Virus record (IMG/VR): IMGVR_UViG_3300021368_002593 | Coordinates: 1 to 51,608 of that record | Length of the DNA: 51,608 nucleotides | Direction: 5' to 3' (one strand) | From: a virus | Part shown: positions 11,795 to 23,538 of the stretch, one piece after another | How the letters are laid out: each line of letters begins with the position of its first letter | How positions within the stretch are numbered: the first letter of the stretch is position 1 | Translations under genes and position numbers: made by a program | Notes under the pieces: generated by a model | Told to the model about the DNA's origin: nothing | Databases searched by the model: none | What the model saw: only the letters and a program-made list of their open reading frames with translations

Positions 11795-11801
11795 ACATTT
11801 A

Positions 11802-11886
11802 TGCGAGTAGGGAGACTTGAACTCCCACGAGCGTAATGCTCAACAGATTTTAAGTCTGGTGTGTCTACCGATTCCGCCATACGCGC
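11802..11886 (-). tRNA. tRNA-Leu (anticodon UAA)
   Basis: An 85-nt cloverleaf with the long variable arm of a class II tRNA (TGAGCATTACGCTC region). The anticodon loop is CTTAAAA, giving UAA. The T-arm is GGGAG/CTCCC with a TTCAAGT loop. The acceptor stem GCGCGTA/TACTCGC has one C-T mismatch; discriminator A; CCA not encoded. It reads UUA, a codon expected to be more common in this AT-rich phage than in its host. Confidence 0.92.
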
Positions 11887-12028
11887 AAGGCATTACACTT
11901 ATCCGAATGCTTGCTATGGGGCACTCAACCCAACATTCTGACAGTTTGTAATGGAGCAAAGAGAGTAACCAACTCTCAAGATCACAGTGTGGTTAGCACC
12001 GTCGCGGGCGAGCTCATTCCCCGTCTTA
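11887..12028. other. 142-nt spacer between tRNA genes, no gene recognised
   Basis: No open frame or complete cloverleaf fits on either strand. It contains an inverted repeat (GAGAGTAACCAACTCTC at about 11959-11975) and a plus-strand stretch at 12000-12024 resembling a disrupted T-arm, possibly a decayed tRNA. Confidence 0.4.
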
Positions 12029-12101
12029 TGCTTCCTGAGAGGATCGAACTCTCCTTAGGCAAATTATGAGTTTGCTGCATTCACCAGATTGCTAAGGAAG
12101 C
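12029..12101 (-). tRNA. tRNA with CAU anticodon (Met, or Ile2 if lysidine-modified)
   Basis: A 73-nt cloverleaf: acceptor GCTTCCT/AGGAAGC, T8-A9, anticodon arm GCAAA-CTCATAA-TTTGC, T-arm GAGAG-TTCGATC-CTCTC, discriminator A. CAU can be elongator Met or, with lysidine at position 34, Ile(AUA). The primary sequence does not settle this. Confidence 0.9.
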
Positions 12102-12104
12102 AAA

Positions 12105-12176
12105 TGGTTCTGCCGAGAATTGAACTCGGTTCACACGCTTATAAGGCATGGGCTTTAACCAATAAGCAACAGAACC
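12105..12176 (-). tRNA. tRNA-Ile (anticodon UAU)
   Basis: A 72-nt cloverleaf: acceptor GGTTCTG/CAGAACC with discriminator A, D-stem GCTT/AAGC, anticodon arm CATGC-CTTATAA-GCGTG giving UAU, T-arm CCGAG-TTCAATT-CTCGG. UAU reads AUA directly. Most bacteria read AUA with a lysidine-modified CAU tRNA, so this species is unusual. Confidence 0.9.
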
Positions 12177-17549: not shown

Positions 17550-18821
17550 TTAAGACCCTAGTGTATCTCGAACTATCAATAAATGGGAATAAGATCTTGA
17601 GTTCGTGACATGGTGGCAAACTTCTTTGATAAGATACTTACCACTTAGTTTTTCATCATACTCAAATTGGCAACCAGCTTTCGATATATTTACGACAATT
17701 GTGTTGCCTGCATGTAAGTTGAGGTTTTGTGGGACTGTAATATTTAGTATCTGACTAAAAATAGAATTATATGTAATAGGTCCTTGAACATCGAATATTG
17801 AATGATCAAAGTTCACATTCAATCTATCAGTCAATCCCTGCATATCTTGAATGCTTATATATTGTCTAGTAAACTTCAAATCTGTCGCATCTGCTGGTGG
17901 TTCATAAGTAGCATTTCCGAAGAAGGATGTTGCATCAAAGTCTTCATAGTCGAATGTGCTGTTTGCATCTGGATCTAGACCATCACTCGATGGTTTAAAA
18001 TTAAATCGTTTACCACCAAATGCACCAAACATAGCTTTACTATTAAGATTATCCGTTTGTACTTGTCTGTACTTTAGAATTCTTTTTTGAGGATCTTGTC
18101 TACCAAAAGGCGTCTTTGGTTCATATACATCATCAGCTGTGCCACCATAAGTATATGTTTCAGTGATTGGTTGATCAATCAAATCTTTCATAGATCTAAA
18201 ATTATATCCTTCCCTTGTTTGATAGAAGAAAAATCCTGCAGATTTTCCATTTTCTTCACTAGAAGTTCTAGGACAAATATCCATGATAACAGTAAATGGT
18301 TTTCTACTATTACCTTGATATGAGAAAGCAGAAGATGAAGGTGATCCCCTAAATGCTACATCTGAACCAAGATCATCTACTAAAATGCTACGAACATTTT
18401 CTGTTGTGTTTTGAGCTGGAAGTTTCCTGTAGACTCTGGTAGACTCTGATTTGAAATGATCTGGTGATATGAAGTTAAAAAACACAAGATTTTTATCATC
18501 CTGTTGGAATACTTGTGCCGCTTCAAATACTTTTAGTGATAGATTTAATGTCTGATTTCTTTGATTCTCAATAATTATCTCTACATTTTCTCCAGTCTTG
18601 AGTGGAAGAGCAGACATAAACGATTCATCGTACTTATCTCCATCAATCCGAGCTCTTCCAGTGTCTAGCATCAAGGTTTTTGCAGTCATCACTGGAGAGA
18701 ATATATCTTCGTAGAAATAAAAATCTCCAGCAACACCAGCACTGATGTCAACTTGCCTTTCGCCATCAGCACTTGTGAGTAAGAATTTATTAATAAAAGA
18801 TCTTTCTGTTGCTGATGCCAT
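17550..18821 (-). CDS. Baseplate hub protein, gp27-like
   Basis: A 423-aa protein starting MASATERSFINKFLL, rich in beta strands (GDFYFYEDIFSP, LPLKTGENVEIII, GNTIVVNISKAGCQFEY). The length, the N-terminal tube-like domain and the position next to the gp5-like gene and the hydrolase fit the gp27 hub family, which forms the trimeric ring joining tail tube and spike. The final part (GKYLIKEVCHHVTNSRSYSH) resembles the closing strand of gpD-like hubs. The ATG overlaps the stop of the upstream gene (TAATG). Confidence 0.65.
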   Translation of the reverse strand: MASATERSFINKFLLTSADGERQVDISAGVAGDFYFYEDIFSPVMTAKTLMLDTGRARIDGDKYDESFMSALPLKTGENVEIIIENQRNQTLNLSLKVFEAAQVFQQDDKNLVFFNFISPDHFKSESTRVYRKLPAQNTTENVRSILVDDLGSDVAFRGSPSSSAFSYQGNSRKPFTVIMDICPRTSSEENGKSAGFFFYQTREGYNFRSMKDLIDQPITETYTYGGTADDVYEPKTPFGRQDPQKRILKYRQVQTDNLNSKAMFGAFGGKRFNFKPSSDGLDPDANSTFDYEDFDATSFFGNATYEPPADATDLKFTRQYISIQDMQGLTDRLNVNFDHSIFDVQGPITYNSIFSQILNITVPQNLNLHAGNTIVVNISKAGCQFEYDEKLSGKYLIKEVCHHVTNSRSYSHLLIVRDTLGS

Positions 18822-20863
18822 TAGGTATATGCAAGTTGAATATTACCAAGCTTATTTAACATGTCTGGAGCACTCTTTGTTGAAGAAGCTATGGTCTGTG
18901 ACGATGAACCGACTGGTATTGGTTGCGCCACAGGAATTTCTATGGGTACAATTGCAACTCTCTGTCCACTTGAGGTTCTGCCTTTTGATATTGTTCTTTG
19001 ATTTTCAACACCTCTAAAGTTTTTATTCATCCATGATATTGGATCGGTTGGTGGTCTGAAATTACCCGCTGAATCAGGTATATTATTTGAGATTTCCCAG
19101 TGTAAATGATCAGCATACTTATTCGGATTACCATATCCAGATCCACCAACAGTTCCCAACATAGTTTGAGTGCCAAAACTTTGACCCTTTCTTAGTGGAC
19201 TTGGCTCATTCATATGTCCAAAGAAATGATATGCATTAAACTTATCATCCTTCCATGTTACCCAATTTCCATATCCACCATCATTTGCTGCACCTAACCT
19301 TCCAGTTTGATATACTTTTCCAGGGAGATATGAAAAGAGTGGAGTGCCTCTTGAAGCACCAACATCAATACCATTATGTTTCTTTGGACCTGCCCCCAGA
19401 TCACGCATACCCATACCAGAAGTAATTTTTGGTGTATATGTTCCTGGTTTACTTTTTAAAATTGGACTTGTAGGTATACTAACACTGGCACCTTTTCCTT
19501 GAGGTGCATAAGCACTACCAGTAGTACCACTGAGAGGCATCAAACTGCCTGATGTAGTTTGTGGTGGTGGTTGTTGTGGTTGTGCTGGAGGTGGTATTTG
19601 CTGAGTTGGGGGTGATGTTATTTTTGTTTCTGATTTTCCTAAAGGAGTTCCAGCTGCTTCATTGATAAGATCCATCCCAGCTTGATCTTTTAGCAAACCA
19701 GTTCTCTTATCCGCCGTCCAATGACTTAATCCACCACCAGGCATCGTCAATAAAACTGCAGCCAAATAATCTTGAACGTCTGGACTAAATTTTACATTTT
19801 TTGAAATGTTGGCATATCTTAAGGTGTCTTGTAAAGTACCACTTAAAAACTGATATCTTCCAGCAGCATGTATGAAACCCTGATTATTTTGTCGGCTCAG
19901 ATTTTGTGCTGCCAAAATTTCAGCAATCGTCATATCAGTGAGATTCTTTCCAATGATCCCAGCTGAGGGTCCACTCGCTGGTGTTCTTCCACCAGAATCT
20001 GGGATGGTTCCCTGATTCATTGCATTATAGTTTCCAGAACCTGCTGATTCATATTCAGATATTTTATTCAGAGCCTGAATATGAATTGGTTTTAATCTAC
20101 CCCTATAATTTGTACCAGAAGGTCCAGAAGGAGTTGTTGGTTCTTCGGGTCTTTGTTGTGCTTGTCCCTGTCCAGAACCATCTGGATTACCACCAGGACC
20201 ATAATACTCTGGTTCCTTCTCTGGTTTTTGTTCTTCTTTCTCTGGTGGTTTTGTTAGGTTTTGAACATTGAATAATGCATCTTCCCAATTTGTCCCTAAA
20301 GATTCAACTGCCGCTTCTAAATTATCTACTTCTTTCTGAAGTTTTCCTTCTTTATCAGTAAAGTCAAAATTCTTTATGTTAGTTATTGCTTGAGTTACAA
20401 CTCCTTTTAATCCACCGATGATATTTCTAATATCTTGGATCATTCGTTTTGCAGCTTGGACAATATTTCCAATACGAACTTTCAATGTTTCAATTAGTGC
20501 TAGGATTCTAGGTAGTTCTCCAACTAACCAACCGAGGAGTAGATATCCCAGGGCATTCATAATTCTACCCAAGAAACCTTTACCCTTATTGAGAGTTCTG
20601 GATACCAGTCCAGATCCTGGTACTGAACTTGCTTCTAGTGCAGATTCTCTATTTCTTCTCTCTTGTCTAAACCTGAAAAGTTGATTTAATCTTCTTTCTT
20701 TTCTGTATATTGTCGTGCCAATATTATCCCTCTTTCTGAATACATTTACAGCTTTAATTGATGCCTTTCTAGCACCAATCGTACTCTTCCTGAGAGTCAA
20801 TAGATTATCATCTAATGAGGATCTCTTGAATGTATCTCGTAGTAGCGCAGATGAAAGTGACAT
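18821..20863 (-). CDS. Tail-associated wall hydrolase: muramidase-like plus LytM (M23) peptidase
   Basis: A 680-aa protein. Residues 1-200 are basic and helical with a hydrophobic stretch (ALGYLLLGWLVGELPRILAL). A Pro/Gln-rich linker follows. From about 258 to 405 is a lysozyme/transglycosylase-like domain (ISEYESAG..., AAGRYQFLSGTL, with Glu as candidate catalyst). Another Pro-rich linker leads to an M23 domain at about 490-610 with GIDVGA and the zinc motif HLHWE preceded by KKHNGID. It would cut both glycan and peptide parts of murein during DNA entry. It likely replaces the lysozyme that T4 carries in gp5. It sits between the tape-measure candidate and the hub. Confidence 0.8.
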   Translation of the reverse strand: MSLSSALLRDTFKRSSLDDNLLTLRKSTIGARKASIKAVNVFRKRDNIGTTIYRKERRLNQLFRFRQERRNRESALEASSVPGSGLVSRTLNKGKGFLGRIMNALGYLLLGWLVGELPRILALIETLKVRIGNIVQAAKRMIQDIRNIIGGLKGVVTQAITNIKNFDFTDKEGKLQKEVDNLEAAVESLGTNWEDALFNVQNLTKPPEKEEQKPEKEPEYYGPGGNPDGSGQGQAQQRPEEPTTPSGPSGTNYRGRLKPIHIQALNKISEYESAGSGNYNAMNQGTIPDSGGRTPASGPSAGIIGKNLTDMTIAEILAAQNLSRQNNQGFIHAAGRYQFLSGTLQDTLRYANISKNVKFSPDVQDYLAAVLLTMPGGGLSHWTADKRTGLLKDQAGMDLINEAAGTPLGKSETKITSPPTQQIPPPAQPQQPPPQTTSGSLMPLSGTTGSAYAPQGKGASVSIPTSPILKSKPGTYTPKITSGMGMRDLGAGPKKHNGIDVGASRGTPLFSYLPGKVYQTGRLGAANDGGYGNWVTWKDDKFNAYHFFGHMNEPSPLRKGQSFGTQTMLGTVGGSGYGNPNKYADHLHWEISNNIPDSAGNFRPPTDPISWMNKNFRGVENQRTISKGRTSSGQRVAIVPIEIPVAQPIPVGSSSQTIASSTKSAPDMLNKLGNIQLAYT

Positions 20864-20868
20864 TTAGA

Positions 20869-22650
20869 TTATCTTCCTGGTATTTTCACATTAAAATTTC
20901 TTTCCGCAATTCCCGCATAAGGATTTTGAGGATTATATGAGAGAACATCTGGAACTTCATCATCAATAGTATTATGTTTTCCTACTGGATTCATAAATCG
21001 TTCTTTCATTCTGTTCATGTCTTCAGTGAATTGAGCATCAATTGCCCTTTCACCCTCTCTACTTGCTTGATTCACTTGTGCTGCTTTTTGCTCTCCAGAT
21101 GGAACTGGATTAATTGGTGATACTGGAGCACCTTCAATAGCTGCAGCACCCTGTGAAAGTGATTCAGGTGATCCAGCTTCGGATGCTCCTGGTATTGCAG
21201 GAGTTTGGCGGTGTAATTCTGCCAGCGCCCCTTCAACAGAATCAACATCACCATCAGAAGTTTCAGGTTTTTTCATTAACCCTACATCCTGTAGAACTTT
21301 TGTGATTGGATCATTCACACCTTTGAAGAAATTGTCCAAATTCAACGAATCGTAATTTGAATCTAAGAATGGTGTGACAAAAGTAGATCCCAAGTATTGA
21401 CCCAACGCACCACCGCCGATTGCACCTGCAATAGCAGCCAAGAATGCTCCTGGTCCAGTGGTAAGACCAAGTAATCCAGCTAATCCACCACCAATTTTAG
21501 CACCGCCCAACGTCAGCATCATTTCTGGTATCATGGGACCAACTGCTTTGCTGGGAGTCATTCCCTGATCAAGTCTACCTTTGATTGCGCTACCAATATA
21601 TGCAATTTTTAAAGCAGTGCCTAAGAAACTGATAAATCCAGGACTTCTAAGAACAGCCTTGATTCCATTACCAAGTTTATTTTTTCCACCACGAAGCAAT
21701 TCAAATAAACGTTGAATAGCAGTGTTCTTAGTTAGTTTTGGTGGTGCTGATGGTGGTTGTGGGTTAGTAAGTCTAGGATTTCCAGGCCTGGGTGGAACTT
21801 GTTGATTTCCTGATGGTGGTTTTGGTGGTCTTGGTTGTGTTCCTTGGCCACCAGTTGATGGTGGTGGTACTGGTGATCGTCCTTGCCCACCAGTTGATGG
21901 TGGCGTTGGTGTTTTTGGTTGTTTTGGTGTTACTGGTGGTGTTTTTCCCTTCCCACCTGGTGTTGTTGGTGGTGTTTTTGGTGGTTTTGGCGTTACTGGT
22001 GGTTTCTTGGGTAATAATCTACCAAAGATTAAATTAAATCCACCTTTTAATATCCAACCACCAATCTTCAGTGCTAAACCACCAATTGTGGTAATTAGAC
22101 CAAGGACACCACCACTCAATATTGCAAATATACCACCAGCAACTGCTAATCCATTTATAAGTTCTTGTTTTAATTTTTCAAGTTCGTTTGTATTTCCTTC
22201 TGCATCCGCCCGAAATATTTTGAGTAGTTTGGTAGTTAACCATCCACCAAAGAGAAATAGTAAAGCCTTCTTTAAATCAAATAGTTTGTTCTGAACTGCA
22301 CCTTGAATTTTTCTGACAGGTTTCATCAATGCAGAGGTGATCTTTCCCTCTACAACATCTTCTGATCTTCCAAATGCAGTTCTTTCTGCATCTACTAATC
22401 TAGTTCTTCTTTCTTGATTAGCTCTTGCTTGTTCCTTTACAGTCTCACCTTGAATCGCTGCAGTGAGAGTATTGAGATTAGTTGAAATAGCAACAATATT
22501 TCTATTGATGCTTGTTAATTGTTTACCTAAAAAAGTATATACCTGCGTCTGTTGAGCATTATTTTGCTTCTCAACAGCTAAAATGGCATCCTGAGTTCCT
22601 TCCGTATTACCAGCTGGTAGTAGTTTTTGTGGATTTACTCTAGATGCCAT
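20869..22650 (-). CDS. Tape-measure-like tail protein
   Basis: A 593-aa protein. Order: a coiled-coil N-terminus with Gln/Asn; a hydrophobic segment at about 165-205 (LAVAGGIFAILSGGVLGLIT); a Pro-rich linker with repeats such as PPSTGGQG and KTPPVTPK at about 210-300; Gly/Ala-rich hydrophobic segments at about 370-430 (GLAGLLGLTTGPGAFLAAIA); an acidic tail. Hydrophobic blocks plus coiled coil, and its place right after a gp26/frameshift-chaperone pair, fit a tape measure. T4 gp29 has a very similar length (590 aa). Assignment rests on context, not clear similarity. Confidence 0.55.
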   Translation of the reverse strand: MASRVNPQKLLPAGNTEGTQDAILAVEKQNNAQQTQVYTFLGKQLTSINRNIVAISTNLNTLTAAIQGETVKEQARANQERRTRLVDAERTAFGRSEDVVEGKITSALMKPVRKIQGAVQNKLFDLKKALLFLFGGWLTTKLLKIFRADAEGNTNELEKLKQELINGLAVAGGIFAILSGGVLGLITTIGGLALKIGGWILKGGFNLIFGRLLPKKPPVTPKPPKTPPTTPGGKGKTPPVTPKQPKTPTPPSTGGQGRSPVPPPSTGGQGTQPRPPKPPSGNQQVPPRPGNPRLTNPQPPSAPPKLTKNTAIQRLFELLRGGKNKLGNGIKAVLRSPGFISFLGTALKIAYIGSAIKGRLDQGMTPSKAVGPMIPEMMLTLGGAKIGGGLAGLLGLTTGPGAFLAAIAGAIGGGALGQYLGSTFVTPFLDSNYDSLNLDNFFKGVNDPITKVLQDVGLMKKPETSDGDVDSVEGALAELHRQTPAIPGASEAGSPESLSQGAAAIEGAPVSPINPVPSGEQKAAQVNQASREGERAIDAQFTEDMNRMKERFMNPVGKHNTIDDEVPDVLSYNPQNPYAGIAERNFNVKIPGR

Positions 22651-22771
22651 TTGCTTGTTTGCGTTTCAGTTCTTCTTCTTCCAAATATGCTAAGAGGAGA
22701 GAAACATATACTTCTCTTTCCCATGGCATCATATTTTCTAACTCCGTCAAACTGTATTTATGATGCTGCAT
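22640..22771 (-). CDS. gp51-like/tail-assembly-chaperone C-terminal module (frameshift extension of gp26)
   Basis: A 43-codon frame beginning MQHHKYSLTELENMMPWERE and ending in an acidic-basic helix. Its frame stays open upstream, without a stop, to the slippery site at 22828-22834 inside the end of the gp26 gene. It is therefore probably made mainly as a -1 frameshift extension of 62 residues, joined to gp26. Independent initiation at ATG 22771 is the alternative, but no Shine-Dalgarno is visible. Its stop overlaps the ATG region of the tape-measure candidate by 11 nt. Such MPWER-type helical modules recall the T part of G/GT tail chaperones. Confidence 0.6.
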   Translation of the reverse strand: MQHHKYSLTELENMMPWEREVYVSLLLAYLEEEELKRKQANGI

Positions 22772-22821
22772 CAAGGCAAAATTAGTTTGGAAATACGAAG
22801 TTAGAGATTCATGTGCCAGGG

Positions 22822-23538
22822 CTACGCGAAAAAAGATGCTAGACCTTCAAGAACAACTTCATTTTCAACACCAGTCTTTGGATTTGTCACCTTCAATGTG
22901 TGTGACAGTTTTGGCATTGTTGAGAAAAACTTCTCAACTTTTGCAAATTGAGATGATGTCAAGTTGCCAACGAATTCATCCAGTTCTTTCTTGGTGCAAT
23001 CTGCAGTGTTCCAAGACTCCTCTTCAGAATAGACTTGATCTACACAACTTGTGATAATATCAAATCCTTGATCAATACTTACATCTCCACCATCAAAGTT
23101 TGTCTTTACAAACTCATCAAGAGATGGATACTTCATTCTAATAGAAAGTTCATCATCTAGTTTGATGTCTCGATTGTGTTCGTCACTTACATTGATTTGA
23201 ATATCATCAATGTTAATTTGAACCTCGACTTCAGTTTCACCGTCGTCTGGACATGTGACAATTACATCGATAAGTTCACCTACAGACTTTCCACGAACAT
23301 TCAAGAATAGATATTCAATATCGAAAGTAGAAAGATTTTCTACCTTTACACCTCTAGAAAGGATACAAGAAGAAAGAACGTTCTTGACAGCACCTGTAAT
23401 TTGCTTCATATCTTGACTCTCTAGAGCCATGATAAGAACCTTTTCCTCTTTGACTAGAAATGGACGATACTTGATTTTCTTTTTGATTGAAGGCAACTCA
23501 AGTTCATAAACAGGAGTCGAAGACTTTGGTAAAGGCAT
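22822..23538 (-). CDS. Baseplate hub assembly protein gp26-like (probable tail-assembly chaperone)
   Basis: A 238-aa protein starting MPLPKSSTPVYELELPSIKK, with YRPFLVKEEKVLIMALES, the hallmark N-terminal region of the T4 gp26 baseplate family, then alternating helices and beta segments ending in EVVLEGLASFFA. T4 gp26 is about 208 aa. It follows gp54 with a CTAAATA box overlapping the gp54 stop. Its last codons contain a T TTT TTC heptamer and the -1 frame continues into the gp51-like module. Likely role: assembling the baseplate hub and tail around the tape measure. Confidence 0.8.
   Translation of the reverse strand: MPLPKSSTPVYELELPSIKKKIKYRPFLVKEEKVLIMALESQDMKQITGAVKNVLSSCILSRGVKVENLSTFDIEYLFLNVRGKSVGELIDVIVTCPDDGETEVEVQINIDDIQINVSDEHNRDIKLDDELSIRMKYPSLDEFVKTNFDGGDVSIDQGFDIITSCVDQVYSEEESWNTADCTKKELDEFVGNLTSSQFAKVEKFFSTMPKLSHTLKVTNPKTGVENEVVLEGLASFFA
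22828..22834 (-). other. Candidate -1 ribosomal frameshift site (T TTT TTC)
   Basis: Minus strand, zero-frame codons TCT TTT TTC GCG TAG: the heptamer TTTTTTC fits X XXY YYZ and lies one codon before the gp26 stop. Slippage by -1 enters a frame open for 62 codons, to the stop at 22640. Confidence 0.6.

Follow-up and report, generated by a model that had tools for sequence, protein, structure and literature searches.

Does the gp26 gene of a T4-like cyanophage make one protein or two? We addressed this question in a 51,608-nucleotide stretch of viral DNA (hereafter the window), in which a gp26-family gene lies on the minus strand at positions 22822-23538. Its 0 frame encodes 238 amino acids that match Pfam family PF12322 (E = 3.6e-74) and phrog_150 (E = 9.9e-81), and this product is a putative short, G-like form of a tail assembly chaperone (TAC). 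On the minus strand the 3′ end of the gene reads ...GAA GGT CTA GCA TCT TTT TTC GCG TAG. As the original prediction had it, the slippery heptamer T TTT TTC (22834-22828) is in frame with gp26 and lies one codon ahead of the TAG stop (22824-22822). From the slip site, the −1 frame on the same strand (22640-22828) runs for 62 codons to a TAG at 22642-22640. The slip site and the conserved −1 frame together predict a frameshift fusion (22640-23538, minus strand) of 237 + 62 = 299 amino acids, which would be the long, GT-like form of the chaperone; both the 62 open codons and the size of the fusion agree with what had been proposed for this locus.

Searches based on gp26, run across viral contigs and named phages, recovered about 80 relatives, and all of those in which the gp26 stop was present had an open −1 frame and an in-frame TTTTTTC or TTTTTTT just 5′ of that stop. 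A second search with the −1 module as the query yielded 80 further loci, while a scan of viral contigs with the gp26 of Vibrio phage VmeM-32 as the query returned no confirmed relatives. The two-frame set comprised 171 related loci, or 105 at 85% non-redundancy, with gp26 identities to the window protein reaching down to ~30%. It spanned Kyanoviridae, other marine contigs, Caulobacter phage Cr30, Sinorhizobium phage phiM7, Pseudomonas phages pf16 and Milchi, Vibrio phage VmeM-32, and the Aeromonas phiAS5 group. Both the heptamer and the −1 frame at the gp26 3′ end were retained in 171/171 loci, with TTTTTTC in 157, TTTTTTT in 13 and TTTTTTA in one; the offset was −1 throughout, and the heptamer was present even where gp26 was only about 30-38% identical to that of the window. 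In every one of the 105 non-redundant loci, the first slip codon was TTT and the preceding codon ended in T. Given the frequencies elsewhere in the genes (TTT 72%, third-base T 45%), the nominal chance of such invariance is ~10^-51, a figure that is indicative only since the loci are not independent. As an internal control, T-TTT-TTY occurred in just 1 of 95 other FF pairs of the same genes.

The −1 frame itself also bears the marks of a coding sequence. Complete loci keep it open over about 57-64 codons, and its conservation begins at the slip site, as illustrated by the translations 5′ of the first ATG in two examples, FFRIALAHESLTSYYQTNFAL and FFQLALAHENLENYYKVNFAL. In 32 non-redundant loci whose −1 frame lacks an ATG ahead of codon 12, codon positions 1/2/3 showed 0.45/0.29/0.65 differences per codon, a pattern indicating that the −1 frame is coding between the gp26 stop and any start. 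In 10 of the 105 loci the frame opens just 2-3 codons ahead of the first post-slip codon, so that a start far upstream within this frame is impossible. Taken as comparative evidence, the heptamer in 171/171 loci and the conserved −1 frame strongly support a −1 frameshift at this site.

We then weighed whether gp51, the name under which the −1 module is annotated, could be a separate short gene that begins just past the gp26 stop and is translated by coupling or reinitiation. RefSeq and GenBank do list a separate gp51 in P-SSM2, S-SM2, S-RSM4, S-T4 and ACG-2014f, and an ATG stands at the fourth −1 codon in 60 of the 105 loci; that ATG is nevertheless missing in the other 45 and is buried in a strong hairpin in 46 of the 60 that have it. 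Nor is the first −1 ATG preceded by a Shine-Dalgarno (SD) sequence (mean anti-SD energy, −0.9 kcal/mol over 88 loci), in line with the lack of a ribosome site noted by the original prediction, although the −1 frame of the window holds three post-slip ATGs (the M of ALMQHH and the MM of NMMPWE) and not the single internal one then counted. Two distant Vibrio phages, D528 and Ackermann BX-1, speak for separate initiation, as TAATG overlaps are present and the TTTTTT heptamer was not found in either; both fall below our automatic criteria. A separate start would leave the perfectly kept heptamer without explanation, and the −1 frame is conserved 5′ of the first ATG. Because of the missing ATGs, the lack of an SD sequence, the conservation ahead of the ATG and the kept heptamer, we reject separate initiation of gp51 as very unlikely. 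As regards the annotations, six public records give inconsistent starts for gp51 or, in ACG-2014e, omit it, though the −1 frame is continuous with gp26. As regards the two Vibrio phages, both are gp26 relatives with a −1 module and TAATG stop-start overlaps, and BX-1 carries GTTTTT, which has been described as the motif of TAC genes in Vandenendeviridae.

Many relatives of the window have putative stimulatory elements on both sides of the heptamer. Of the 87 loci with Glu as the fifth codon before the slip, 72 use GAG, compared with 32% elsewhere. Mean anti-SD energy reaches a peak of −7.5 kcal/mol ~16 nt 5′ of the heptamer, against a flank average of −0.1, and the regional best of −7.5 falls to −5.6 after synonymous recoding; the gp26 start and that of the gene that follows average only about −2. 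Most relatives possess a dnaX-like internal SD-like element, mostly GAGG, about 9 nt 5′ of the heptamer. On the 3′ side, a 60-nt segment beginning 12 nt past the first base of the heptamer folds with a mean z of −2.3, an effect that fades at other offsets. A stem placed 5 nt 3′ of the heptamer forms at least 9 of 11 pairs in 47 of the 105 loci; controls gave 0-2 loci with slid partners and, after synonymous recoding, a mean of 5 (maximum 11 over 200 trials). Only one stem position shows clear compensatory pair changes (T-A, G-C, A-T).

The window itself departs from this pattern. Its upstream element is GAAGG (22844-22848, minus strand), a weak counterpart with an anti-SD energy of −3.9 kcal/mol against the mean of −7.5 in the non-redundant set, and only 4 of the 11 stem pairs form; its closest relatives, the members of its clade, are likewise without the stem. 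The combination of an upstream SD-like element and a downstream hairpin that characterizes the dnaX-like cassette is therefore found in many relatives and not in the window. With no stem and only GAAGG, the window site may depend mainly on the heptamer, and its frameshift efficiency is uncertain because the strong SD-like element and hairpin of many relatives are missing there. We lean, by a small margin over an even chance, towards a broader proposal in which cyanophage TAC genes carry a tuned three-part cassette of internal SD, T TTT TTC and hairpin after a 5-nt spacer. Clades would keep or drop the stimulators, so that the ratio of short to long form, and possibly tail assembly, would be tuned in each lineage, with T4-type phages having escaped this arrangement via duplication. 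The internal SD element and the hairpin apparently go beyond earlier work on TAC genes.

These elements also bear on whether the fusion could arise from transcriptional slippage on the T run, with no involvement of ribosomes. The loci do have a run of six or seven T, yet almost all stop at six bases, whereas bacterial transcriptional slippage has been described for A or T runs nine bases long (PMC5009743); in addition, ribosomal slippage fits the SD-like element and the hairpin that relatives carry at set distances on either side of the heptamer. We reject this explanation as extremely improbable on both counts. A last reading, in which the open −1 frame is a pseudogene, an artefact of sequencing or a chance event, has nothing in its favor beyond the presence of the stop codon; it is next to impossible and is refuted by the recurrence of this two-frame layout and stop in 171 loci, which come both from isolates and from viral contigs of metagenomes.

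The −1 module matches phrog_634 (E = 5.5e-27), which is labeled "baseplate hub assembly catalyst". It further matches the final columns (241-276) of the gp26 family profile phrog_150 (E = 1.2e-4). PF12322, which recognizes the gp26 of the window, likewise matches T4 gp26 (E = 8.8e-64) and T4 gp51 (E = 3.9e-52). T4 gp51 (249 aa) matches phrog_150 over 13-280 of 282 columns as well as phrog_634, and a phrog_634-type module is found in frame at its end. Profile comparison of gp51 with gp26 by hhalign gave 98.2% probability and E = 4.2e-14, the alignment stopping at VF/FF, which is the slip position. Because of these family matches and the alignment up to the slip position, T4 gp51 is, as judged from its sequence, a full-length gp26 paralogue with the module fused in frame. 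The original suggestion of a gp26/gp51 chaperone pair is thereby strongly supported on comparative grounds and refined, in that T4 gp51 consists of a whole gp26 paralogue plus the module and not of the module alone.

In T4, genes 26 and 51 are separate and divergent. The TTTTTT heptamer was not found at the gp26 end of T4-type phages having both genes, where FF is encoded by TTC TTT (for example, in T4) or has been lost. A tree of the shared body, for which the root was not inferred and in which some branches are long, placed the single-gene sequences on one side of a branch (support 100/98) and all T4-type gp26 and gp51 sequences on the other. Such a topology fits the view that duplication took the place of frameshifting on the T4 side. 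In RB43 (L111, 2501-3794), gp51 and a gp26-like gene follow one another on one strand, whereas those of T4 diverge; such a tandem order would be expected soon after a tandem duplication.

The gene that follows on the minus strand (20869-22650) had been proposed as the tape-measure candidate. Its position and length (593 aa) agree with that proposal, and it has one hydrophobic segment. In phmmer searches it resembled the syntenic genes of P-SSM2 (E = 1.2e-15) and phiAS5 (E = 1.1e-5), but similarity to T4 gp29 was not significant (E = 0.57), and comparison of the next-gene family profile with T4 gp29 gave no support. The annotation of Caulobacter phage Cr30 labels a nearby gene as tape measure. 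On position, length and weak similarity, identification of the next gene as the tape measure is plausible. The first 11 nt of this gene, beginning with its ATG, are shared with the end of the −1 module (22640-22650), an overlap of a kind seen in 82% of 88 loci, and its translation could be coupled to frameshifting ribosomes. Farther downstream, positions 18821-20863 encode 680 aa that include an M23 peptidase domain (E = 1.6e-12); this protein matches tape-measure families weakly and over the M23 domain. Elsewhere in the window, three tRNA genes, Leu(taa), Met(cat) and Ile(tat), occupy positions 11801-12176.

We consider it highly probable, at about 92%, that the locus is the TAC gene of a T4-like cyanophage, producing short and long forms via −1 frameshifting, and that T4-type phages use two genes instead. 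The slippage, product ratio and chaperone function that we infer would operate as follows. Most ribosomes would stop one codon past T TTT TTC and release the 238-aa short form, gp26, while a minority would slip back by one base, with tRNA-Phe re-pairing on TTT TTT, and produce the 299-aa long form with the gp51 module at its C-terminus. By analogy with lambda G/GT, the tape-measure protein would be coated by many copies of the short form and a few of the long one, whose C-terminal module would bring in tail-tube subunits. The same two products would come, in T4 and the phages close to it, where the slip site is gone, from the paralogous genes 26 (short) and 51 (long).

The gp26 model of the window (pLDDT 85.5) gave no significant match (E > 3) in a PDB fold search, although the two highest probabilities among the 50 matches listed are those of two known TACs, 3FGX (0.47), which is a TAC according to PMC9603447, and HK97 gp13 (2OB9; 0.25). 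No meaningful fold match in the PDB emerged for the gp51 model, and a PDB sequence search with the family profile found nothing. Published work on T4 classes gp26 and gp51 among the hub assembly chaperones and describes gp51 as an essential protein that the particle lacks (PMC3004832). Some genetic work places T4 gp26 in the baseplate hub (PMC3004832), which counts against pure-chaperone behavior.

Under the frameshift reading, the annotation of gp26 and gp51 would be corrected in hundreds of cyanophage genomes, gp51 being the tail of a frameshift product and not a separate gene, and, at the level of sequence, the essential gp51 of T4 can be read as the longer partner in a pair of chaperones. 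Phages with one gene and a frameshift against those with two genes and none, and sites with stimulators against those without, make the required ratio of short to long form directly testable.

The layout resembles lambda G/GT in having a short protein and a −1 extension directly upstream of the tape measure (here a candidate), with the slip near the stop. It differs in its longer body (238 aa) and in slipping on T TTT TTC, the slip sequence of lambda being GGGAAAG. With E. coli dnaX, the relatives share an SD-like element ~9 nt before the heptamer (in most) and a stem 5 nt after it (47/105), whereas the gene and the slip sequence are different and the window is without strong versions of both stimulators. 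The TAC locus of Vandenendeviridae and Andersonviridae similarly has a −1 frame open through a separately annotated gene before the tape measure, with GTTTTT as its motif in place of the TTTTTTC of the window (PMC12846349). The frameshifted TAC core is already known in outline for T4-like phages, in which, as relayed by two later papers (PMC10885494, PMC12846349), Vladimirov, Gautam and Davidson identified the TAC genes (2022, Virology 566:9-15). According to the PRFect paper (PMC10885494), which draws on that study, a short gene and a long fused gene occur together in some T4-like phages, and the paper on phage Adele (PMC12846349) names the same study as its source on poly-T frameshift signals in the TAC genes of T4-like phages. 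On these accounts, the T4-like TACs are very probably the same family as the window locus (gp26/gp51, PF12322, PHROG 150/634), differing where two gene copies do what one gene and a frameshift would do in the window.
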